Program-made: the position numbers and the translations under genes
The notes under the pieces: model-generated
Told to the model about the DNA's origin: nothing
What the model saw: only the letters and a program-made list of their open reading frames with translations
Databases searched by the model: none
In this document: positions 44,301 to 60,171 of the stretch, one piece after another
Layout: each line of letters begins with the position of its first letter
Position numbering within the stretch: the stretch's first letter is position 1
Source: Thelephora terrestris
Lineage: Eukaryota; Basidiomycota; Agaricomycetes; Thelephorales; Thelephoraceae
DNA length: 64,000 nt
NCBI GenBank assembly: GCA_015956445.1
Contig: WIUZ02000009.1
Coordinates: 806,001 to 870,000, forward strand
Reading direction: 5' to 3'

Positions 44301-46799
44301 CAGGTCAAAGTGGTGCTACCATATTATTGATCCCATCCGCGGCAACACCGTTTAGGACATTAAGAGGGATGCGTGGCGATCGACTTCAGCGGTCAGCGTG
44401 CCTGTGAGGGATCCCAGACAGATTGATGAGTTTCAGTGTTCTCCATTCACCAGCGAACGGAACGACGCCCTCCCCCCCCCTCGCTTGCTCGGCAAAGCGA
44501 TCCGGTTCTGGAGTGGCTTTCGGGCAAAGCGTGGCCTGCCCGGGGCGGATTGTTCGACAGAAGGCTTTCTTCTGACTTGTATGCGAGAAATTGTTGTGCC
44601 TAGCGAAGCCGTACATTCGCCGCGACCCTCCTTGGGGATTTCGACCTCTAGACCTTGCCTACCGGCACGGCGTGAGCCCGGGATTTGGAGAATACAAGGA
44701 AATTTGGCGGACGATGGAACCTGGGACCGGCAGAAAACAATTCGGCCCGAGGGAGAGGGGAATCCCGCCGGCTCAGATATCGAGAGAAAAATCAATTCAA
44801 AGCCGCAGAAGTCTTAGTCGCCTGCAACGGGGCCTTGTGACCAGAGAATAATACAAAGAGTGGCCAAGAAAGGCCGCCACACGACATCACGCCCACGCAG
44901 TTTAGCACACCAAACAGAGCATTTTCCAAGCCGTTGGGGTTACGTCACATCACCTGGAAGTAAGTTCCGAGCGATAGAAACGCCGCTGAATGTCGAGCAC
45001 CACGGCGAATTGATTGAGGAGTCAGAAGAGAGTGGGCTCTCGCCCTGCTGGCGGATGAACGCGAGGAAACGTTCCGTGAGAAATTCTTTGAATTAGACGT
45101 CAGATGTTGAACGTTGACCAGAAGCGCAGCCATGTACACACCCACTGCCCGCAAACGGTAGACAGGGGGTCGTTCCAGTGCTCAATACAGCTGGGATAGA
45201 ACGAATAATTCCAGAGAACCTGAAGGCCATTTCCAAAAGAAGAGATGGAACGAGGATCGTGACTGGCCCCGGCACCGTTCCCGGCCCGATCGAAGCGGAA
45301 GAAAATAAGGTCACCTCCCAAGACGCCGGCCCACCCACGACTCTGTTCGCCGCTACGCTTCCGATTCGTGTCGTCGAAGAAGTCTTGCTTTAATCTAATG
45401 GGAGAAACGAGACGGTGCCAAACCCTCAAGCTTCGATGCAAAAGGCCTAGGCCGACTATCGAAGATCGGAGCGCACGCTGTTTTGGTGGGGGAGGGGTCC
45501 CACCCTTGAGGCCCGGAAGATCGGAGGAATAGGTGATTGTCCTAGGTTAGAATCCAGCCTCGAGTCCGGAGGCTGGGGGTCTCTTAATTAAGATTGCCCA
45601 GTGACCGTCCGTAAGGCGATATCCACTTTTAATCGGACATGCGGAATCGTTGAAGGAGACCATCAGGATCTCGTACGCAGATTATCTCCAAGCCACGCAC
45701 CTAGATTCGCAGTCATTTCGTTCGAGACTTTGCAAAGCTTGCGAACCATGGGCCGGGAATGGGCACATTGATCCCGCCCACTTTAACCCCACCCCATTCC
45801 GGCATCGGCCTGGCAGTTCGGCCGTTTGGTCCTATCTGTGTGCGTGGAGATGACTTTAGATGGCATAGAGGCACATAGTCACCTCATTGAGGATCAGTAA
45901 TTTGCGAACGCGGAACGCCCGTGCCACTGCTGCACCCCATGCTGAACTTTTAATCTCATCTGAGATAATGCCCCCACCCAGCACACGCGTATGACCACAA
46001 AGCGCGCATGTTTCATTCCGCCCCAAGGTGACTGCTGATTGGACCTGGCAATTGATTCGAGCCTACGAGTCTGGCAAGTATCCACCCTCGTCGCGGGTCG
46101 TGTCTGGCCCTTTTTTTTCTTTTCAATGACCGAGTCGGAGAATCCTGTCAGAACCACCTGATATATCAGCAGACGTACCCGTAAACGTACTGCGGGCTCT
46201 CTTCAATTCATCGTTGTGACAATAGCTGGAGGCAGTAGTGCGAGGAACGTCCATGCCAACTAGATTTGGTCATCGGACTCGGAACCGCGCCCCGCGACGC
46301 GACCGGCGAATTGAACTCTTGAGGGATCACGTGCGCACAACTTCCATGGATTCTGCGAGTCCTTGACGTTCTCAACGTCGTGGACGGCCCCGTAAACCCC
46401 TCTGGCAGACCAGGGCGAGCCACACACTGGCTCATGTCACAATCAGTTCCGACGCGACCTGTCGGATGTAGAGGTTTTGAGCGCGGTTCGTTCTTGGCGT
46501 GTTCCTTTGAGTTCAACCGGGTGTTCTGATTAGCCAGCAGGTGTCAGCCAGGCTGAGGCCGAAGGCAATCAGAAGAACATCGGGCTCGGTCTGCTGAACC
46601 TCATGCAAGCACAGAGTCATCGGGAAAAGGGGAAAATACTTATGACGCGGAATAGGGTTTATAAACCCTCGTTGTATTAACAGCGCGTTGTTGATATATC
46701 GAGGGTTTCATAACAGCCGCATTTCTTTTGGAACAGGTTTACACAAGTGATATAGATTCAACTAGGTTTTCGTTCATTTTGTACGGGGTACATATAGAC
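41376..46799. other. Gene-poor region of 5.4 kb
   Basis: No recognisable domain in six frames. A promoter-like stretch (CT-rich, then AAACAAACAAAACAAAAAGC at 42021-42041) precedes a frame at 42080-42462 of low-complexity composition. The plus-strand frame 42580-43290 (ATG, 236 aa) is the longest, without known domain. The rest resembles decayed, non-coding DNA. Confidence 0.4.
42580..43290 (+). CDS. Uncharacterised open frame (doubtful gene)
   Basis: A 236-aa ATG-started frame without intron. It overlaps long frames in the other plus frame (42563-43168) and on the minus strand (42927-42364), as happens in stop-poor random DNA of this base composition. No domain, signal peptide or membrane segment is recognisable. 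Confidence 0.15.
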   Translation: MDRLLVQSYVVREPTTLRYCTATRKYARSISVFKSVPTHLLGCTLPFSRDTGRYSRHLGIRLHFPGQLENKGQTGIRAPPLQNTCQSEGKIDGPLDGRLPIPTVPSGDRNDQDRHQLLSNLSINREHSEGHGRRHPCHPVSHEIAGDHKALGKWIRCLNPCAWAWVSEVNHFWCGRAPNSWLEASPSAAANGLQFVGFHRSSTSPGWGEKPKYNPQIASATHDPLQPMPCTLWALC

Positions 46800-46825
46800 T
46801 ATGAGTTGTTTACGATATCTTCGAA

Positions 46826-47660
46826 AACCAAACATCTCCTTATGTAACCGACGTTGGGTAGACGGTCCGTTCGTCTGCCTGATGAGGAGCTCGTGAGGGC
46901 TTGATTATATAAATGAGCGTGCCAAAAAATCAACCTAGGGTTTATGCAGGTATTATACACCATACAACTGGGGTATCTACCGTATAGCACGGTCATATGG
47001 TCAATGGTCAGCATATATTGTTCGGTATGTATGTTAGACGTATTAACAATAGCCTCAAATGGTACACAACGCGTTATGTACTTGGTGATAGGTAGATGAT
47101 CCGATTGTCAATCTGATACCGGCCTTGGGAGGTCCCGATTGTATAGTTGGGCGCATTATAAGATTTCTTTGGGTCTCACATAGACGTCGTATTGTCGACG
47201 GTCGCTATATACAGTTGATATTTAATCTCTATTGCTTTCAAAAGGTAAACAGCGTGTTATATACTCGGCATCGCACAAATGACCCGGTCATCAACCTGAC
47301 GCGGGCCTCAGGAGGACCCTGTTAGTTAATCGGGTGTAGCGTAGAATTTACTTTTGACATATGAAACAACGTATGCTATACAACTGAGGCGTTGGCTATA
47401 TAGATGTATTCATGTTTCAAAAGACCGGTATATAAAGTTCAGTATTTAGTTTATGTTACATTCAAAAGATGAACATCATGTTTTGTATTCGATGTTGAGT
47501 AGACGATCCGATCGTCGACTTGACATCAGTCTCGTGAAGACCCAAGTAGATAGTGCGGTGCACCAACAATATATCGTGACTTATGTAGATGTCATACCAC
47601 TTACAGCGGGCCGTTTGGTCAAGAAACGGTGTGAACCGCCTTCGTGGGTACCATGGACAA
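46826..47660. repeat. Diverged tandem satellite, about four units of 185-226 bp
   Basis: Units start near 46826, 47052, 47237 and 47460. In each, a piece like TCAAAAGRTRAACA is followed about 20-30 bases later by a core like GTAGAYGATCCGATYGTC, then CTTGACATCAGTCTCGTGAA or its relatives (CTGATACCGGCCTTGGGAGG; CTGACGCGGGCCTCAGGAGG; CTGATGAGGAGCTCGTGAGG). The differences are mostly transitions and small indels, at roughly a third of positions. AT-rich links separate the cores. No coding frame crosses it. It is an old satellite or a decayed internal repeat of an element. Confidence 0.65.
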
Positions 47661-48104
47661 ACTGAATGATTCTTCGGATTTCCTGAGGCGTACGGTGTGA
47701 ATATTTACATGAAATTTACTCGCTGTTACTGCCAACAAGCGGCTTGTGTAGATAGATATGTAGCGTAACGAAGAAACATTCAGAGCGGTCCAACCAAGAG
47801 TTTGCGAACAGACGACGAAGAGGGGCAGGGTGCCACAAGGGGCCAAGTTGGAGTTCTACACAAAGACGCTCGTCAAGAGGTTGGAAGATATCCTGTGCGA
47901 GGCGACCGCGACCGGGAGCGGCCAGGGAAAACTAACGACGGAAAGCAAAGGGTAGCAATCCGAACGACAACCAAAAACTATGAAACCGGAACACATAAAA
48001 GGCGTAACATCGATGTCATATGTAAGCGCGAGGAGGGAAAGGCGGGGATCAGCCATGGAGCGATGGAGGGAGTATACTTGAGGGCCGACACTAGCCGTGA
48101 GTCT

Positions 48105-49240
48105 TCAGGAATGGGGATGAGGAACAGCGGGTGCTGGGCGGTCAGAATACCTACTGCAGATCGGTGAATAGACCGCGGAGTCCCTCTGAGTTGTCGGAGG
48201 AGTCCTCCGTGTTGAATGACCACCGTCGGAAGGGGCGCAATGGTGTTTGCAGATGGTTGGGGAGGGAGTGCTCAGGCTGGAAGGAAGACTGGTGGTCATC
48301 GGAGACAACGGAGCGGTGCGGGGGCCATTATCGAAAAAGATAGATCGCTGCTGCCGGGTAGGGAGATTTGGGACAGGGGTACTTGGACGGCTACCCTCGC
48401 CATCGATATCCGTCATATCGTCACAAATCGGGAAGGGGTCTTCCATATGGGTCTGGAGGATGGTAGATTTGACAATGCTGACGGGAGCGGAGCGAGAGAC
48501 ATTGGCCACGATAGGTGAGTGCCCCTTGTTCGACCAAGGGACTGAGATGGCCTCGGTCGGGGTCTGCGTAGCATCGATTGACTGTTGATGACGGTTTGCG
48601 AGTTTACCTGAGGGCCATCCAAGCTTTGGAGGGGGCAGTGATTTGAAAGTTGACTTCGATTTAGTGTCCGTGAGGTCCAACACCGCGGGGATTGAAGAAC
48701 GAGGTGTCCCAAAATTCAACGAGGTCAGTAGCCACGACCGTACGCTTTGGTGGGCATCCATCCTGCTTGGCAGATTCAGGAATGGGAAGTCGACCGATCC
48801 GGGCATTGGTAAGGTCTTGCATGAACCGAATCCAATCCTCGTGATGGACGTCGTGGGTGGTGAGAACCGCTGGCAGCGGTGGCATACTCTTCTCCAGCTC
48901 CGAATCGAAGTCTTGGATCTTGAGGTTCTTGGAGGGTGTGTAGGATTGTGCAGCATTGGGAGGTCCGCTGAACCCTTCAGGAGGCGGGAGTGAGTGGGAG
49001 GTAGGTAGGGAGATGGGTGGCTATATGGTGAGGGTGAAGGTCCACGATTGTACGGATCTCTTGAGCGGGGTTGTATTTGGGTGGTTGACCTTGGACAATG
49101 GTCGCGACGCCGTAGTGGCCACCAGTAGTACCAAGGGGGTGGTGGAGCCTCAGCCTGGGTGGGAAGTGCGGGGGGAGAGGGCTGACGCGCCGGTCGACGA
49201 GTTTGCTTAGCAGGCGTTGGAGGAGCGGAAGACTGGGGAA
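48105..49240 (-). CDS. Uncharacterised gene or gene relic with a W-x5-FFNPRG motif
   Basis: A frame around 48957-48690 reads KNLKIQDFDSELEKSMPPLP, then DVHHEDWIRFMQDLTNAR and VVATDLVEFWDTSFFNPRG. I recognise the pattern DW-x2-FM-x2-L followed by W-x3-FF-x-PRG from uncharacterised basidiomycete proteins. Downstream, a second frame with SIDATQTPTEAISVPWSNKG and TDIDGEGSRPSTPVPNLPT could follow after an intron between NPRG and KLANRH. Upstream sequence is Pro-rich and could not be assembled. It may be a real gene with a disordered tail or a decayed copy. Confidence 0.4.
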
Positions 49241-49326
49241 AAGAGGAGGGCTACAGTAACCAAAGGAAAAGAAAGGTGTCAACTTGAAAAAATCCCTGAA
49301 GTAAGAGGAAGCAGCCGGTCGAAAAG

Positions 49327-49434
49327 CTCCCTTCGGCTGGGCCGCCAGGAGGTTAGAAGTAAAAAGGGTCAAATGAAGGGCTCCCTTCGGCTAGGCCGCC
49401 AGGAGGTTAGAAGTAAAAAGGGAAACACGGAGGG
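49327..49434. repeat. 54-bp tandem duplication
   Basis: CTCCCTTCGGCT(G/A)GGCCGCC plus the following 31 bases, ending AAAAAGGG, occurs at 49327 and again at 49381 with one difference. It lies between the 48-49 kb gene and the transposon's left part. Confidence 0.8.
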
Positions 49435-49697
49435 GATGGCTGCTGGCGATTTTGGTGGTGGCGAGAAAAGGTGAGTGAGAGTTGATCGATCCTAAGCGGT
49501 CGTTATTAGAATTACACGGGTTTACGTAGGGCATCGTAAAATATATGACTGATATGTCAGCCATACGGGGCGGAAACATCGCCGAATGGTACGGATATGT
49601 GCGCAGTGTTCACTCACTGTCACTACAGAAAGATTAATGGATAACTTGTGAGCCGTAGACGCCTGACAATATGCTATTTGGAAAGACAATCGCGAAG

Positions 49698-52600
49698 CTA
49701 CAAGCCAGTGAACCCATACTCGCCATCTAGGGTGTCTTCGTTATCATCTCCATCTGTTTCGTGCAAAATATCGGGGTCCATGTCTGAGCTATAGTCTGCA
49801 TCAGAGTCCGTAGTATGGTTCGACGAGGTATCTCCTTCGTTGGATGCCTCGTCCTGAGAGTCTCCTTCGCTGTTGTCTTCATGGCTGTCTCCTGAGTCCT
49901 TGCCTTCATCGTGCTCACCGTCTTCTGAGCCACTACCTGAGTCCGACAAAGTGGACATTAGGGAGTCATCGGCACCCCACCCTGTCTCAGTAAGCCAGGC
50001 CTCAATTGCACGCATGTAGAGGTGCCCAACCCCACCGCCCCGATATCGCATGAACATGTCGCGATCAACGAAGCTGCCGTGAAGGGATCAGATTGTAGAT
50101 AAATGGGGTAGTACGGAATAGTTACTTACATATTCACATGATAGTAATTCCAGTCATCCTCAAGGAACCTGACCGCGTGAGACCCTTCAGGACAGGGCTG
50201 AGGATCTGCAAGGTCATATTCAAAAGCCGGGATTATGTGGGTAGCACGCAGGACATCAGATGGCGATATAAAGCCATGCCACTCGGTCATGACGTCGCCC
50301 TGAGGGTCAACAAACTGTAAGCGTGGAATGCGAAGGTGGGAGAAGCCGTCTTTGTAAGTGGGATCCCGTTCGAACCAGCGGACCCAAAGGACTTGGAGTT
50401 CCTGTCTTCTGGAACCACTGATGAGCGTCTTTTTGCCTTTGTAGTGGATGGGGACTGTAAATATGTCGATGAGTCGGCCATATCGATATGGGTGAGAGTG
50501 ATCGCCCTCGGGAGAGACGACCATGATGTCGGGGCGTGTGCGGACGTTGATGGTGTCAGAGTGCCTCTGGAGGTCGTACGCTGTATAATTGATGCGAAGT
50601 GTCTTATGAATGGATATTTTACCACCCTTGTCGATATCAGTATCGAGTATGTCTTCACTGGAGGGTACATCCTCTTGAACCAGCAGTCGTGACAGAGCGT
50701 GTCTTTTGAGGTTCCATGTGAAATCCTAGAAGTGCGATTGGTAAACGATGGGCGAGAGAGACATGTGGCCCACCTCAAACAAAGGATCTGACTCCTGATC
50801 AGTCATCCAGATACGAGCGTTCTTGCTCTTCTTCCAAGGCTTCGAAATGACGTAGCTTGAGGCAGATGAAACGCAAGGGATGGCTTCATCTGCAGGTCCA
50901 GAGGTGCCCCTCTTCACCTCCGTGAGTCTTCTAATCAGACGTCTACGGGCTTCTTGATTGCTGATTGATCTGGCGACCAGTCGATGGTTTGTACGAGCAT
51001 AGAAGCGTTTCACACGCCGATGCTCGCATTCGCCCTGGTGAAATGATTAGTATATTATTAAGTGGATATGTAGCTAGAAAATAAAATTTACCATCTGTGT
51101 GCTATATGAATCGGTCGTTCCTCGTTGGCGGATAGTGTTGGCGTAATCTCCCAGTGCGTGGAGTTTATAGGTGGAGAGGTTAAACCTCCTTGTGCCCGAT
51201 GAGGCTTTCCTCTTTGACTTCCCAGTGGCCGCCTGTCGTTTCCGAGCCTCTGCCTCCTTCGGGAGCTCCTTGGTATCAAAGTTGTCACTAAACTTTGCAC
51301 CAAAGTGGCGGAGGGCGGATCCAAGCGGTTTTGTCAGGACGTCAAAGGAGGTCAACGTATGATCGGTGTGAAGGCGTAGCTTAGCATACGCGTGCCAGGT
51401 GGAAAGGGTGAAAACAAGGTCAAGGATGACCTTCTCGTGCTTCCTGGGCAACAGCCCCCCAATCACTGGGATGATACACTGAAATACATGAGTTAATTGT
51501 ACTATTGTTGGTTGTGAACGTACTTGTAAGATATCTTCAAAGTCTCGTGCGGCAAGTTTCTTCATCGCAGAGACGTTGTTGGAAAATTTTCGGATCGTGT
51601 CGAGTCCAAACGTCGGAACCTGTCGGAACCTACCCACATACACTGGGGGCAAGGGTTGGTTTACTGAGTCAGTAAAATGTGAGTAAATCACAAGCAAATG
51701 GAAAAAGAACCCAGCCAAATACTTGCCTGGCAAGTACAAAGCAAATTCACAATTTACTGAGCCAATTTACCTGCAATTTACTGGGTTCAGTATGCGCTCA
51801 GTATGTTTGCAGTTTACTGGGTCATGTGACCATGGTTTCCCCATTAGGTAAACCTCGGAAAATTTTACAATTTACTGAGCCACTTGCCCAATCAGTATGT
51901 TTTCAATTTGCTGAGTGATTTAATCACAATTTACTGACGATGTACCTGATTGGTTAATTTGAAAAATACCCGAAAATTTACCTGGACGTGTCATTGTCAG
52001 TAAACTGCAAGTTTTCTTTCAGTGAAATGGAAATACACGTCAGGTAAACTGGGAAAACATGTGACAATTTGATCGTGGTTTACTGGGCTCAGTAAATCAG
52101 AAAAAAACTTAACTGGTTTATTGACGATGTACCTGATTGGCTAATTTGAAAAAACTCGAAATTTTACCAGGACGTGTCTTTATCAGTAAACTGCAAGTTT
52201 TCTTTCAGTAAATCGCAAGTACACATAAAGTAAACCAGAAAACACGTGTAAACTGTAAGTAAATTCAAAGTTTACGTGTTTTCTGGTTTACTGAAAGAAA
52301 ACTTGCAGTTTACTGATAAAGATACGTCCTGGTAAAATTTCGAGTTTTTTCAAATTAGCCAATCAGGTACATCGTCAATAAACCAGTTAAGTTTTTTTCT
52401 GATTTACTGAGCCCAGTAAACCACGATCAAATTGTCACATGTTTTCCCAGTTTACCTGACGTGTATTTCCATTTCACTGAAAGAAAACTTGCAGTTTACT
52501 GACAATGACACGTCCAGGTAAATTTTCGGGTATTTTTCAAATTAACCAATCAGGTACATCGTCAGTAAATTGTGATTAAATCACTCAGCAAATTGAAAAC

Positions 52601-55212
52601 ATACTGATTGGGCAAGTGGCTCAGTAAATTGTAAAATTTTCCGAGGTTTACCTAATGGGGAAACCATGGTCACATGACCCAGTAAACTGCAAACATACTG
52701 AGCGCATACTGAACCCAGTAAATTGCAGGTAAATTGGCTCAGTAAATTGTGAATTTGCTTTGTACTTGCCAGGCAAGTATTTGGCTGGGTTCTTTTTCCA
52801 TTTGCTTGTGATTTACTCACATTTTACTGACTCAGTAAACCAACCCTTGCCCCCAGTGATAAGAAATCAGGAAAACGGACAAATCATGATTGCGATCTCA
52901 CCGGCGGTCGAACTCCGCGATGACCCCTGCGCCTTGGGTATAGAGGATCCGAAGAAGATGCGTCAATACGGCCTTCCAGACGCCCAGCTCGAATTCATGC
53001 ATGAGGTCCACGACAAAGAGCGAGAAAAACTCCAGCCCGAACTTATCAAGGGCTGAAATGAATGCGCTCTGGGGGGGTAATCAACATGCGCTCGGTTTAA
53101 TAATTGGTTTACTTACACGTGTCGGCGTAAACGATTCTGAGCCAATTACACGGTTGACAGCCATCGAATTGACGGTATACCCCTTTTTGTAAATGATCTC
53201 CCGTGCGGTTTCAACGCTGGCCCGGTACCTTTCATTACATTTCCGAACTTTCGCCCTTCTTTGTCTGTCAACCATGGTTCCTAGACCCCTGATGTACTCT
53301 CGCCTGATGAGACATCGTGGACATGGACATATACCCATGTTTCGTACACAGGCTAGAAGTACTCTTTTCAGTGTACATAGTATCAATAAAAATCTGAGAT
53401 GTGTGAATTGGCGACTTACTTCTCCGGGTAATCAGCCATATATGCAAAAAACCGAGGGAACACACGGCGGATTACTTGATCGGCAAAACAGATAAAAATT
53501 CCAAATTGATATGCTTGTACAAAGTCCGGGGCACTGAGAATCAGTAGCCAGAGTGCCTGAATGAGCTCCCGTTTGCAATGTGTGATTGTTGCGTCCGAGG
53601 GAACAATACCAAATTTCTCCCGATACCAATCGGAAAAAGAGTCGGGAAGCTACATCATATCAATTATTAAATGATCCACAGGGGGCGTAACATAGATGAG
53701 ACACACCGAAGGAAAATAGGCCGTGTGATGCGCCGCATGTGAAGAGGGTTGACAGCGGATGTATTTGGAAAGGTTCCCAAAATACACATAGACGGGCCAG
53801 AGAGACGCGGTCCCAAACTGCGCAAGCATAGTCGCATCCGAATACGGAGCCAATTCAACCACAATGCTCTCGGCCTCAGGGTAATCTGGATGTGGGGGAA
53901 TGTTCTGGACTTCTTGATATGCGGTGATCATCTCATCTGAGGTATACGCTTCTCCATACAGCCGAATTGATGGTGCGTCATCTGTTGGCTTCCACCTCTC
54001 TTCGAATGGTGCTGTATGAAAAAACCCCGCTGTTGCCTCGTCCTGACAGGCGTTCTTGATAACAGCTGTTAGATCTCGATATAGGAGGCCTTCGATCTCG
54101 AATTCCACAGCGTCCACTTCGGCAACCTTCTCCTTGGGGCATGGCACGGAGATCTTTATGTTCGCCTTGTTCCACCCCTGACCTTCAAGGCTCGACTCAA
54201 AGGCATCAAGCTTCTTAAGCTCATTCGCCAACTTGACACCTCGCAGTTCCTCAGCCTCGAAGTCCTCGTGTAGGATGACATCGTCTATCAGGCGTTGGGC
54301 GTCGGCCATAGATTTTTGACCAGTTCCCGAACAGAACCATTGGATTAAGAGGGCGACTGTTGTGTTCAAAAACAGGCCTACCAGGTTGGATAGGCCTGTT
54401 ATAAACACGATCGGCATCCGAAGACCAGAGGCAAGATTGTCTGCACATGCTTGGTGAGTTTCTCCAGAATCGATGAAGTCGTTGTGATCCGGAACAGGGA
54501 CATTTGAGAGTTCTGATACGGGATGGCGATGATAGATCCTGAATCGTCCGAACTCATCCGCCTCTGTCATAAACTTCTTGAGCTCGACTGGAGGGGTTGG
54601 TGAGACAGGGGGCGTTGAGGAGGCTTGTCTTTGGTGTTTATCTGCCTCAACTATCGCCTCTTCCTCTTCCATTTGTCGCTTCTGTGTCTTGAAGCTCGGA
54701 AGGTGCGAGAGCCCCAAATCTGTATCCTGATATCTCGTTGGCAGTCGGCGTATGCGGCCATAGCGACCTGTAGAAAGTAGGGTAGCATCAGTCAGCAGGG
54801 GAGGTGCGTTTATTGGGGGTGGTGGGGCAGCGGTTTGGCCCCCACCCTGTAACGACGACAATAATTGTGAGGCATATGCTTTTACTAAGCCTATTTTTAC
54901 AGAACACACCTCAAGATCAACATCAGCGGGTTCTACAGCCTCTGGGACAATCTCCAAATGTTCAGAGGAGGATATTTTGCGCCGTTTGGCCTGTTGGTAA
55001 TCGTCTTCACGCCGCTTGACCTCCTTGCCAACTGAGGCAAGTCCAAGTTTGGCTATCTTACACTTTCCAACATGAGTGGTAAGCGCTCTGTCACCTTTTG
55101 CTTTGAAGTTGCATCCTTCAGCAGGGCACACAAGCATGGTAGACGTGCGTTTGGGAGGAAGAGAGATGTCTTTTCTCTCTGTGAGTACTTTGCTCATTGC
55201 ACGACGCCTCAT
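49698..55212 (-). CDS. Plavaka-type transposase, apparently whole
   Basis: Exons (minus): 55212-53707, 53649-53420, 53363-53117, 53068-52902, 51629-51524, 51478-51092, 51034-50774, 50725-50130, 50073-49698; all phases agree; 1,291 aa. It starts with a zinc-finger-like segment (MLVCPAEGCNFKAKGDRALT, THVGKC). Family blocks: DEFGRFRIYHRHPVSE, LAPYSDATMLAQFGTASLWP, VYVYFGNLSKYIR, then LPDSFSDWYREKFG, FPRFFAYMADYPEK, CPCPRCLIR, and VVDLMHEFELGVWKAVLTHL (which probably holds a catalytic Asp/Glu), FDRRFRQVPTFG, CEHRRVKRFYARTNH, NYTAYDLQRHSDTINVRTRP, FVDRDMFMRYRGGGVGH. The acidic Ser/Asp/Glu tail ends GEYGFTGL. The intron between 52902 and 51629 was 51 nt before a palindromic element landed in it. 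A further intron between about 54848 and 54768 is possible but not needed. Confidence 0.88.
51641..52858. mobile_element. 1,218-bp palindromic (foldback) element inside a transposase intron
   Basis: The whole element is two nearly identical inverted arms of about 600 bp. The ends are CACTGGGGGCAAGGGTTGG and its complement; ATA at 51638-51640 and 52859-52861 is a 3-bp target duplication. End sequence and duplication length fit the CACTA superfamily. The arms differ by about one base and one stretch of about 22 nt near the centre. A module beginning GACGATGTACCTGATTGG, about 88 bp long, occurs twice in each arm (51936 and 52122 on the left). TTTACTG/CAGTAAA occurs about 12 times per arm. No transposase frame inside; the only frames are mirror images of each other. 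Non-autonomous. Confidence 0.9.
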
Positions 55213-55418
55213 CTTTTTCTCTGATTTGATTCGATCGCATCACACCGCTCTTTTTCCTCTTCCACCACGTCCTCTCTTTGCTCTCCGACTGCGTTGTCTC
55301 TCTTCACCATCATTCTGCCGCTTTTTTCTCTCCCCTTCATTGAATCTGATCTCACCTTCATTCTGCTTCGTCTTTGTCGGTTTTATATCGTGCAGATCAG
55401 TTGTCCCCCGATATCAGT
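55213..55418. promoter_or_regulatory. Divergent promoter of transposase and DUF6698 gene
   Basis: 206 bp between the two starts, CT-rich on the plus strand, with TTTTATATC at 55381-55389, 30 nt before the plus-strand ATG. Confidence 0.5.
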
Positions 55419-58400
55419 ATGACACGACATCGGGGATCCAAGGAGGCTGACACGGCAAAGAAGCGTCCAAGAAAAGCTTTCAGCTTCATGTCACTTGGCT
55501 CGAGAACCAAAGGGTTTGTATCTTAATTTCTTGACCCTTTACGAGCTGATGTAAAACTATCAGGTGGGATAAAAATGCTCCACGAAGTGATTGCCCGTAT
55601 GGCATTTTTGGAAAACGCATGCAGAGATCGTTAATGGGTTTTGGATCCCTTGTGACTGCCATTTACTCGCAAGAGATGATCACTGAAGCCACGCTCAATG
55701 CAAGTCATGGCATCTTGAACCCGGGTAAGGGCAACATGCGCTATTTTCACGAACGGCTGGGGTTCCACAGGTACATTTTAGGCATAAGCTGACAAAAGGT
55801 TGACTACTAACATGAAAATTTAGGGACGGCGTCACTACAGAATACCAAACTATGCGCAGAGCTGTAACAGTCTTACTTCGCCAATTTCCAGGTATCAAAC
55901 ATGATATTGAAAAATCCAAACAAAATGGTGATGCGCTCATCCAGAAGATCAGAAGGGTATGTGTCGATACCCCTGCCCTATATGCGATTATATGCGCAAC
56001 TGCACAACCGTACTATGGAAGTTCTGACATCCGCTCATGCCAGGTTATGAAAGGTGCACATGCAGCGCGCAACACTGATGCAAACTCAATCAGGAGTAAT
56101 ATTTTCACCCTCTCCCATGACGACGCCAAGAAACGTGGTTGGTCAATGCCGGCAAAGATTGAGAAGTCAAACCGTGGCATCAAGTCTGAGTGCACGGCAC
56201 GGTTCCTCCTCTCCTTCAAGGAACGCGATGAATATCTCAAAGATCCGGAAGCGTTGGTCTTCTTTATATATTGTTTCATTCCATCAGACAGCTGACAGAT
56301 CGCCTTAGTTACCGCGAGAAGGTTGAACGAAACCAAATCAAGCTGTCATTGACCGACACGTGGCCTGCCATCCTGTATGATGAGAGCATGGTTAATGATG
56401 AAGACGAGCTAGCCGGTCTCTTCAGGAGTGAGACACTCCTTCGTGTATGTTTTTTATCAACCTGCATATACTTACCACACTCACAAGATCCAATCTTAGT
56501 GCGGGATAACCATTCTGTGCAGCCCATCCGCAGGGTGTGAATGGAAATATCCTGAGCCAGGTGCTCGGTCATTCTCAGCAAGCCAAAAAGAGTCAAACGC
56601 TGAAATTAACGGAATCAAGAGGATAACACCTGAAACCATCGCATACTTTTCAACTTTAGTATGATTTCCTACTGTTGTTCTTGATTATATGCACGCTCTG
56701 ACCTGGCACTTGGTAGGCAATTTTTGCCATCCACGACAGCCTCATTTTCTGTCGTGACCTTGGAGGGATCGATCTCTCCGAGGTGTATCATGATGTTGTG
56801 GCTGCGCTGAGAATGAAGACAGAATGGGCCGTTCAAACGTTAGCATTTTGGAATAAGTAAGTGGGATACATGGTTTACGCCCATAGCTAATCTCAGCAAT
56901 TTATTAGGATCTTCTTTGGAGAAAGAGAAGAAGAAGAAACCGAGCCAAGGATCAACCGCGAAGATAGGTTCAAGCAACTGGAGGCAAAACAACGAGAGAG
57001 AGAAGGCCTGATGGTGTTAGATGCTGACCCACCTAGGTTACCGGCAATCACTCCACCACGTCCTCGAGGCGTTCAGAATCTTGATAACTCAGGTGAGGAT
57101 TTCAATCTTGCTTTGAGCGGATTGACTGGCTACTAAGTCACCCATCTTCGAAGGGCTGGGATCGCCCACACTTGATGATGCAGAGGACAGAGGTGAGATC
57201 TTATGATATTTCATGATCAACGACACTTATAAGATTCGCTATCATACAGTCTCTCTTCCTCCCAAGTCAAAGAACACGCAAAAGAGAAGGATGAGTGGTT
57301 AGTCTTGCCAGTCTGTAGATCCTGCAGACGCCTACTCACATCGCCACTCAGTCCCTGACTCAGACTTAGACCTAGACCCGGAATCAGAACCTGATTCTGA
57401 CCCTGATTCTGATGGAAAACAGTCCGGTACGCCTAGCCACATTACTCATCCATGTGTCATGGTTAAGTACTGACTACACACTATCATCGCAGATGCCGCA
57501 ACGCCTCCGCCCAAAAAAGTTCCGAGGCATTCAATTGGTATGTCATCCCCTCCCTTGTGTCTTATGTTCTGACATTACGTTAGACCGAGAACATTCTCCT
57601 GCTACAGTACGACCTACAGCAGCTAGAAAGAAGCAAACCACCCAGTCATCATCTTCCCAGCTGCAGGACGATGCTGAGGATGGTGAGTCTAATTCTGTCT
57701 CTGTGAATTGACGCCATCAAGATTATACTAATTTCCTAGATAACCACGTGAATGTGGGCGAATGGGATGCCGTATGCAAGGAACTCAAGAAATGTAAGTG
57801 TCATACCCAATTATCGGTCTGCCTACTCCACCCACTGTCGAACCCCAGCAATCAAGTACGCAACAGCTGCCAGTCTCAAGGAAGCAACCAACGAGTTCAC
57901 AAAGATTGTGTCCATGAGGGCAGAGAAGGGCACACGCTACTACAATGAACACTGGGACCGTCTCGGTAAGTGGTCTTATATATTACAGCCCTGAATGGTC
58001 GTTGACGTTCTCCATAGAATGGTTGAGGATGGACGTTGAACGACAGTACCAACGCACCATAGCAACAGGTTTGACATTTGAATACACCTTCAAGTTGCTC
58101 ACTGACAATTTATTGACTTGTGACCGCCCACTAGGCTTAGTGTTGAAGATCCCGGCTACAAAAAAGAAAGGTACATCATTCCCATTTTCTACCTTATCCC
58201 ACTGTGCTGACAACGTCTCACCATGAACTTCACAGGACCCCAAAGAGCCAAAAAAGGTGCGCTGATCTATATCAAACTAGACATTTGTTACTAATAATGT
58301 GTTGCCAGTGGTCCCGGGAGCACGAAGGATCACAAGGAGCATCTCTCGTCGGGAGGGCCAGGATGATGATGACGATGAACTTGACCCTCCTGCCAAAATT

Positions 58401-58448
58401 GATAAGCTCATCAACCCGCCTGTCGTGCCGTCAAGAAGGAAGCGTTAG
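55419..58448 (+). CDS. DUF6698-family protein, probably carried by the transposon
   Basis: First exons: 55419-55513, 55564-55770, 55824-55956, 56044-56252, 56309-56444, 56500-56658, 56717-56856, 56908-57092; then about nine short exons to the stop at 58446-58448. The conserved part (residues 1-480) shows FGKRMQRSLMGFGSLVTAIY, VLLRQFPGIKHDI, VMKGAHAARNTDANSIRSNI, KIEKSNRGIKSECTARFLLS, DTWPAILYDESM, LAGLFRSETLLR, RITPETIAYFSTL, AIFAIHDSLIF and QTLAFWNKIFFGE. This is the plan of the DUF6698 family of basidiomycetes. After it comes an acidic Asp/Ser-repeat linker (DSDLDLDPESEPDSDPDSDG), then a second conserved-looking block (DNHVNVGEWDAVCKELKK, NEFTKIVSMRAEKGTRYYNE) and a basic tail ending VVPSRRKR. 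Function unknown; DNA or transposase binding is a guess from the charged tail. Confidence 0.75.
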
Positions 58449-58708
58449 TCTCCAGCAATCCCTGTCAAAGTTTCTTGTCACGCCCTCCACCACAATAAAT
58501 AGCTTTCTTGGCCCCGATCATCATGTACCGCCTGTCTCTCGTACCTGAATCGTTCTCCCTACATCTGCGGTGTAATACTGATTCTGTAATTGTCAGTATA
58601 TATCCTATTACACCCAAAATCCAAACCCCGTGTAACAAATAAACCGTTGTTATCAGATTTTTTCACAATGAACTCAGATCAATACAATGAATTCCGGTTT
58701 ACCATCAC

Positions 58709-59070
58709 AAGCCTTGTTCTTTGACATAACCCTTGCTTTTCATTATAACCCTTGTTTTCCGTCATAACCTTTGTTTTCTGACATAACACTGGTTTTCCGA
58801 CATATCCCTTGTTTTCCAACATATCCCTTATTTTCCGTCATAACCTTTGTTTTCTGACATAGCACTTGTTTCCCGACATATCCCTTGTTTTCTGACATAA
58901 CCCTCGCTTTTCATTATAACCTTTGTTTTCCAACATATCCCTTATTCTCCGACATAACCCTTGCTTTTCATTGTAACCCCCACTTCTCTTCATAATGCTT
59001 GCATTTTGTTATGACTGCCACTTTCTCTTGTAACCCTCATTTCTCGTTAAAACCTTTGCTTTCCATCACA
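58709..59070. repeat. Minisatellite, 20-bp unit, about 18 copies
   Basis: Repeats of CATAACCCTTGTTTTCCGA and variants (TCATAACCTTTGTTTTCTGA, CATATCCCTTGTTTTCCAA), becoming more diverged towards 59070. It begins 260 bp after the stop of the DUF6698 gene. Confidence 0.85.
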
Positions 59071-60171
59071 ATGTCTCAGTCTATCGATCGAAGCTCATCA
59101 AGGCACGGTCAAGTCTGCGGCAACGCGGTAAGCATTGCGGTGATATTACTATTTTATGGAGGTGTTGTGAGAACTCGGAGGACTCTTACGAAGACACGCG
59201 ATCTATACAAACTATTATCGCCTTTACCAGAGCTTCTGTTTCCGAACAGAGTTCATAACTTCTTTCCCCTTTTCCTGATGGTCGCGTAACAAATGGTGGA
59301 AAACCCCTTGCCAAGGCACACGAAGCCGTTTCATCTCGAAGATATCATGAACGTGCCCTCCCCGCCCCGTGGGATCCCCGAGGATAGTTGTAATAGTATG
59401 CAACCGTACTTACCCAATTTGTAATGAGTGACTGTCCGCAGGAATAGTTTGAACAGCAAATATACATATCCGCCGTAGAAGGGTGCCAGTTCCCGCATTT
59501 CGTGGTGTTCCTGACCCTCCAGAGCGGTCGGGGTCCTTCACCTTCCTTAACGGTCCACAAATATTCACCTAGATTCGAGTGTACACTGTGTACATCCCAC
59601 GGACAGTCACTCAATACAAACACGGATTGACTGCCAGAACTTTTGTGCAAAGACTCCACAGGTTTGTACATCCATTTTAGTCTACCAATATTTGTACATT
59701 GCTCGTGTATCCCACAACCCGTGAGAACTGGGCTTGGGGGAGTGATCGAGTCCGCCCTGGACCTTCCCCCGCCATCAGACGGTGAAACCGTGAGAACTCT
59801 GTCGCAAAAAGCTGGCGCCAAATTTTTATCAATAAAAATCCACTTTGAGCGAATTCTGATCCGGAGTGATCAAGATCGATTATTATGAAAGAGAAGAGAT
59901 AAAAATCTCGACCAAAGTAAATAAAATCTGATTTTAATCCTATTTAAAATTGATTTATAATTGATTGATGATTGCTTTTGGACTGAGTTATTATCTTGTC
60001 GGGTCAGATTGGAATTAAATATTGGTTGAATTGGGGTTTGATTGTCACGAGATTATATACTGTATTTTAATCACACATTGCAAGAAATCAATCAAACGAA
60101 AATTGCATTCCAAGATATTGATCTATGTACATGTTTATAGGGTCTGATCATGTCTGAGATGTAAAAACAGC
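59071..60171. other. Intergenic, AT-rich from 59810 to 60130
   Basis: No gene supported. The minus-strand frame 59821-59345 has no recognisable domain. From about 59820 the sequence is strongly AT-rich with repeated TTGATT/AATCAA words, unlike the rest of the window apart from its right edge. Confidence 0.45.

Follow-up and report, generated by a model that had tools for sequence, protein, structure and literature searches.

Palindromic elements of Thelephora terrestris whose arms are probably kept alike by copying within the element, including one in the intron of a Plavaka transposase gene

The palindrome and its host gene

Within the 64,000-nt stretch of Thelephora terrestris contig WIUZ02000009.1 analysed here (the window; contigs of this genome are given as C-numbers and loci fetched from it as L-numbers), a palindromic miniature inverted-repeat transposable element (MITE) occupies an intron of a Plavaka transposase gene (Table 1). 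Its arms are complementary at all but one of 572 sites and enclose 74 nt, and a stretch of 22 nt is left unpaired in the predicted fold. This agrees with the first-pass annotation of the locus, which had described two nearly complementary arms, the same termini and an ATA repeated on either side. Exact 25-mers with an inverted partner no more than 5 kb away number 529 in the window and none of them (0/529) lies outside the palindrome, which argues against a chance origin of the structure.

Table 1. Positions of the palindrome and of its host in the window
Feature	Position	Strand	Remarks
Palindromic MITE	51641..52858	.	1218 bp; termini CACTGGGGGC...GCCCCCAGTG
Left arm	51641..52212	+	572 nt; 1 mismatch against right arm
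Centre	52213..52286	.	74 nt; asymmetric loop region
Right arm	52287..52858	-	572 nt
ATA target duplication, left	51638..51640	.
ATA target duplication, right	52859..52861	.
Host intron	51630..52901	-	1272 nt; reduced to 51 nt on removal of the palindrome and a single ATA
Host Plavaka transposase gene	49698..55212	-	9 exons, 1291 aa, hand-made model; Pfam PF18759
Plavaka element	46618..59280	-	Termini CATCGGGAAAAGGG and, reverse-complemented, CATCAGGAAAAGGG, flanked by GT at either end; left edge also the start of 7 homologous rows

The gene model, built by hand from splice signals, joins nine exons into 3876 nt and 1291 codons closed by a single stop, and its product is recognised by the Pfam Plavaka transposase profile (PF18759) both from exon 1 alone (E 8.8e-15) and from residues 1–924 (E 8.2e-29, covering positions 18–318 of the 325 in the profile). 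The borders of the occupied intron on the minus strand, GTGAGA at 52901 and GGGTAG at 51630, are untouched, and subtraction of the element and one ATA restores the 51-nt intron into which the insertion had been proposed to have fallen; the other seven introns measure 45–57 nt. The earlier description of a live-looking transposase gene can be upheld for the reading frame, judging from the sequence. Homology to related host copies begins at 46618 in seven alignment rows; CATCGGGAAAAGGG at this edge and the reverse-complemented CATCAGGAAAAGGG at 59280 point towards each other, each bordered on its outer side by GT. The right end was read from one copy, and a 2-bp GT duplication is weak evidence by itself. 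PMC12730594 describes PlavakaB with CATCA..TGATG ends and a 2–3 bp duplication, a description that the host element would fit by its CATCR ends, 2-bp GT duplication and Plavaka transposase. A forward-strand frame inside the same element (55816–56295) matches DUF6698 (PF20414, E 4e-6).

An RNA copy of the intron is predicted to form a hairpin in which the two arms pair (−1083.4 kcal/mol), so that an earlier proposal to this effect is borne out in silico. A branch-point-like CTGAT precedes the palindrome, at nt 32 of the intron, and the hairpin would therefore need to bring the acceptor close; a second candidate, CTGAC, is found at nt 1230, near the far end. By drawing the splice sites together, the modelled hairpin would render the insertion harmless, an effect that could favour palindromes situated in introns. 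The same fold is what recommends the idea that the hairpin is a selected silencing device, yielding small RNAs that restrain the host transposon. However, since the arms consist of MITE rather than transposase sequence, the expected targets of small RNAs predicted from them would be the palindrome family or the unspliced transcript in cis and not the spliced transposase mRNA. In addition, element and gene had no sequence in common in the searches made, and four to five related host copies carry no palindrome at the intron site, so that we consider such a device very improbable.

Relatives in the genome and the likeness of arms

The terminal sequence CACTGGGGGC has 1208 exact occurrences in the 40.6 Mb genome (595 forward, 613 reverse), against 57 (30 and 27) for a reversed-pattern control, and CACTGGGGAC has 304 and 296, against 30 and 40; some of the latter counts fall inside other elements, because the 953-bp subfamily carries CACTGGGGAC 198 bp inside each end. 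Elements of that subfamily (e.g., L045:1541-2493) look, with these internal end-like sequences, as if palindromes had been nested symmetrically, and pairs of CACTGGGGAC ends recurring 1225 bp apart (C1:1299959, C1:3290643, C2:8363, C2:449494, C3:144438) mark a further subfamily. Further copies with the same ends and 3-bp duplications, for which a genome search had been proposed, were thus found: among 43 paired elements at the fetched loci, 38 are flanked by a 3-bp target duplication. Arms at least 80% alike are seen in 31 of the 43, a palindromic share biased upward by the 16 members of the window's subfamily, which had been retrieved through their resemblance to the window copy; outside that subfamily the count is 15 of 27. 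Element lengths recur at 501, 723–726, 837–840, 871–876, 953 and 1363–1368 bp, the length of 1218 bp being seen only in the window copy, whose relatives measure about 1366 bp. Certain subfamilies are distantly similar (63–72% over several hundred bases), and the 1218- and 840-bp elements have their terminal 15 bp in common and no other match below E 0.1. No long coding frame occurs in the palindromes examined.

An unoccupied homologous site, matching straight over the junction, was found for nine of 12 loci (L001, L002, L010, L011, L012, L014, L016, L018 and L021; best 40 of 741 candidates). Together with the 3-bp duplications, this shows that the family is mobile and that its members duplicate 3 bp of target on insertion, in many cases within repetitive sequence. 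L014 and L024 hold palindromes in copies of one repeat, at different sites a few dozen bases apart, and at C1:149707 (L008) a palindrome end without matching duplication overlaps a Plavaka domain match (C1:149320-149733).

Arm likeness was compared within and between copies in three subfamilies, each sampled from the best 40 candidates per similarity search and hence biased toward full-length copies. The 1366 subfamily contributed 31 copies (35 loci aligned, four near-identical ones dropped; the partial or composite L067 and L071–L075 excluded), the 874 subfamily 13 (16 loci, three with damaged ends dropped; L090–L092 excluded) and the 953 subfamily 19 (23 loci, four near-identical ones dropped). 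With loop columns excluded, the two arms of a copy differ by 1.48%, 2.72% and 1.70%, respectively, while arms of different copies differ by 5.36%, 9.10% and 6.89%. Between copies it makes no difference whether the same arm or opposite arms are compared (5.35/5.36, 9.11/9.10 and 6.84/6.89%), and left and right arms therefore have no separate histories. When arms were re-paired at random, the observed mean was reached in none of 5000 trials in any of the three subfamilies (last 60 columns excluded, loop kept). Changes private to one copy are frequently present in both of its arms, the ratio of both-arm to one-arm cases being 31/46, 15/28 and 17/26 for transitions and 21/20, 14/25 and 8/19 for transversions in the 1366, 874 and 953 subfamilies. 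Parallel hypermutation, for example by deamination, would not place the same transversion in both arms. The two arms of a copy are mutual nearest relatives in 18 of 31, 10 of 13 and 8 of 19 cases.

The surviving differences are unevenly distributed in the window's subfamily. Across the 1366 alignment (first 23 copies), arms of one copy differ by 4.06% over the outermost 60 columns but by 0.15% over columns 540–600 (1.02% in the last 60), while the difference between copies goes from 5.81 to 3.54%. Among the copies with at least three arm differences (n = 23), 13 have them shifted outward (p < 0.05). Two pairs of copies are instructive: L025 and L060 have 10–11 arm differences in common within the outer 96 columns and none further in, while the five inner columns at which they differ from each other are changed in both arms (5/5), as are 8/8 in the pair L012/L016. 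Correction thus struck the inner part after the members of these pairs had separated, and missed the tips. The survival of differences at the outer ends suggests that copying starts near the loop. In the proposed mechanism one arm would be repeatedly copied from the other inside the same element, with fold-back or hairpin-primed repair synthesis starting at the central loop, running outward and often halting before the tips, so that the arms would stay alike.

Several observations weigh against this account. Arms are not mutual nearest relatives in 13 of 31, 3 of 13 and 11 of 19 copies of the 1366, 874 and 953 subfamilies, and five 1366-subfamily copies, with arm divergences of 4.7–6.9%, look chimeric; in L019, which has no matching duplication, one arm is near L014 and the other near L012/L016. 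The 840 subfamily is little corrected, its arms lying 11.8–14.9% apart within a copy and 15.2% across (5 copies). Two of the 23 copies (the window copy, whose arm differences adjoin the loop, and L026) are shifted inward and eight show no shift, and the 874 and 953 subfamilies have just a slight outward bias. Finally, the assembly has indel errors in places.

The last point, and the difficulty of assembling palindromes in general, would favour an artefact of assembly or polishing; C58 and C14, for instance, differ by no substitution but by 7 gap positions in 364 columns. However, the palindromes lie at many loci with differing flanks and target duplications, certain copies have arms 5–7% apart, so that the assembly does not force equality, and a private transversion would hardly be copied into the second arm by assembly. 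An artefact is scarcely credible on these grounds. The near-identity of the window's arms had originally been ascribed to either recent origin or active correction. A young palindrome, formed by an inverted duplication that has had no time to diverge, would explain the single mismatch and finds some encouragement in the near-identical sisters of other copies (L031/L058, L021/L023). However, the nearest of 30 other copies stands at an arm distance of at least 4.5% from the window copy, and single-copy variants are present in both arms. Moreover, those 30 copies have the same palindrome and the same asymmetric loop sequence, and the palindromic state is therefore older than the copies. A recent origin is thus not supported and we hold it very unlikely, while correction is sustained by the three subfamilies, and arm-to-arm copying rather than youth is the supported explanation of the window's arm identity. 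Taken together, the elements are probably non-autonomous, EnSpm/CACTA-like palindromic MITEs of the foldback type, with arms kept alike by copying within the element.

Two palindromes at one intron site

A second copy of the host on C17, 99% identical over three blocks, is occupied at the very nucleotide of the window's insertion, and between the same ATA repeats, by a palindrome of 840 bp that belongs to a different subfamily (C17:125134-125973); the flanks of the two sites are mismatched at 4/649 and 1/142 positions. This host copy is broken by an extra 1420 bases (C17:120810-122229), overlapping in the alignment at window 48737–48741 and probably another transposon. In more distant host copies (78–83%) the homologous position is vacant, as read directly on C58 and deduced from alignment gaps of 7–8 bp on C4, C14 and C13; the copies on C2 and C59 show gaps of 37 and 92 bp there. 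For the C17 element, the closest match among the best 40 of 412 candidates reaches 96%. Had the elements simply been copied from donors that survive, close sisters would be expected; their lack fits cut-and-paste insertion or the capture of an element after its excision.

That the two Plavaka gene copies were each hit independently, at a target site which the family favours, appears the better explanation, albeit by no wide measure of confidence. The family shows a weak palindromic target preference (mean relative rate 19 at 73 sites), by which the window site scores 21, among the top 0.7% of window positions; palindromes lie frequently in repeated DNA, and the absence of a close sister for either occupant is as expected of old cut-and-paste copies. 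A rough estimate from about 1200 elements, 40.6 Mb, a rate of 21 and a several-fold enrichment in repeats nevertheless puts the chance of hitting the same nucleotide, for each host copy, no higher than a few tenths of a percent. Among 86 flank entries, another two sites shared by elements of different subfamilies also tell against independence: L002 (838 bp) with L066 (1331 bp), with 0 and 6 mismatches in 25 + 25 positions and target sites at relative rates of 4.5 and 2.4, and L079 (876 bp) with L112 (953 bp), with 6 and 4 mismatches. Their hosts being high-copy, it is plausible that these two pairs arose by chance.

The alternative, which we put forward tentatively as the less likely of the two, is replacement of the whole element, an unrelated palindrome being swapped in between the same flanks by way of the shared 15-bp ends alone. 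A break in the fragile palindrome might be repaired from another palindrome through these ends, or flanks broken by excision might capture another excised element, for which the hybrid joints of V(D)J recombination offer an analogy. A second site in related Plavaka copies, with palindromes on C58 (L058), C14 (L061) and C13 (L062), was considered as further evidence of replacement and rejected: L058 and L061 have no substitutions between them and the flanks have none either, and this likeness, as read from the sequences, is one of inheritance or duplication. The palindromes on C13 and C14 are identical and equally far from the ends of their contigs, with flanks differing from C58 by indels only, and reflect either an assembly duplication or a recent end duplication with read errors. 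If replacement is true, insertion sites could neither be dated from the occupant element nor be taken as one-off events, and, given loop-outward copying of arms as well, the site would be a socket with exchangeable, self-repairing content.

Mobilisation and comparison with known systems

The ends of the palindromes and their 3-bp target duplications are those given in PMC12730594 for fungal families of EnSpm in the CMCT clade (CAC..GTG termini, 3-bp duplications). Differences from that clade are that no transposase with such ends was found here and that the sampled copies are mostly palindromic. Plant CACTA elements carry repeats behind their ends. Comparably, TTTACTG/CAGTAAA occurs 24 times within the 1218-bp element, and a lag of 11 gives the top autocorrelation in eight of nine elements tested (two of them, 1218 and 1366, from one subfamily), exceeding in these eight all 500 Markov-resampled and all 500 random window segments; in the 501-bp element the lag-11 value was reached by 28/500 and 10/500, respectively. 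Like MITEs in general, the palindromes are short, multicopy and non-coding, with inverted ends and target duplications. In contrast to them, their arms run to hundreds of bp and make up nearly the whole element, and the interiors of their several subfamilies are barely related to one another or unrelated.

The enzyme that moves them would be encoded elsewhere, recognising the CACTGGGGGC end and perhaps also the repeats of about 11 bp behind it, and inserting by cut-and-paste with a 3-bp duplication, in the window into the intron of the Plavaka gene. Mobilisation by the host's own Plavaka transposase is suggested by this nesting and by the second site in related Plavaka copies, which holds another 1366-type palindrome. 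It is nonetheless highly improbable, since the palindromes have CACTG..CAGTG ends and 3-bp duplications, against CATCR ends and GT on both sides of the host element, and since the Plavaka ends described in PMC12730594 are TGT..ACA or CATCA..TGATG; judged by its ends, the host belongs to that family (PF18759) and the palindrome does not. Comparison by eye of genes of the Plavaka (132 matches), KDZ (125) and Transposase_21 (73) families with the end positions listed yielded no autonomous partner, a point against the proposed explanation: of the Transposase_21 genes situated on C1 or in the initial 1.18 Mb of C2 (n = 13), none is enclosed by inward-facing exact ends. Two candidate autonomous partners were discarded, a 6551-bp element (L039), which combines a 953-type palindrome with a long frame resembling by eye a Copia polyprotein, and a 4117-bp element (L050) with no frame above 170 aa. 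The region C1:161200-173000 contains more palindromes and no recognised transposase, its frames not having been searched against Pfam.

Concerted evolution of palindrome halves is best known from sex chromosomes. The present elements, as hundreds of short and separately placed palindromes, provide replicates for the frequency, the direction and the likeness threshold of arm copying: correction is seen where the arms of a subfamily resemble each other, and hardly at all in the 840 subfamily, whose arms are 12–15% different. A palindrome family of this kind, loop-outward polarity and element replacement were not found among the literature matches listed, nor was a transposon paper among those listed for CACTGGGGG. 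Likeness of repeats within a copy and chimeric copies are, however, already known from Galileo (PMC2775673, PMC3573991), and conversion of ends from bacteria (PMC3004938). In the latter case, a Wolbachia insertion sequence, one inverted end was converted to match the other within the element, as is proposed here, although the ends were of 23 bp, the setting bacterial and the loci affected 2 of 22.

Galileo, a member of the P superfamily in Drosophila, is a precedent for the likeness within copies. Its inverted repeats are more than 99% alike within a copy and about 7% apart between copies, and copies with long repeats lack transposase, gene conversion and ectopic recombination having been proposed in explanation (PMC2775673, PMC3573991, PMC4168063); chimeric copies are also on record there (PMC2775673, PMC3573991). 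The palindromes of T. terrestris behave alike in that their repeats resemble each other more within than between copies. They differ from Galileo in their CACTG ends and in a target duplication of 3 bp, against the 7–8 bp given for Galileo and the P superfamily in PMC4168063, and they are set apart by their small-loop palindromes, the 11-bp period and the outer-end polarity of the surviving arm differences.

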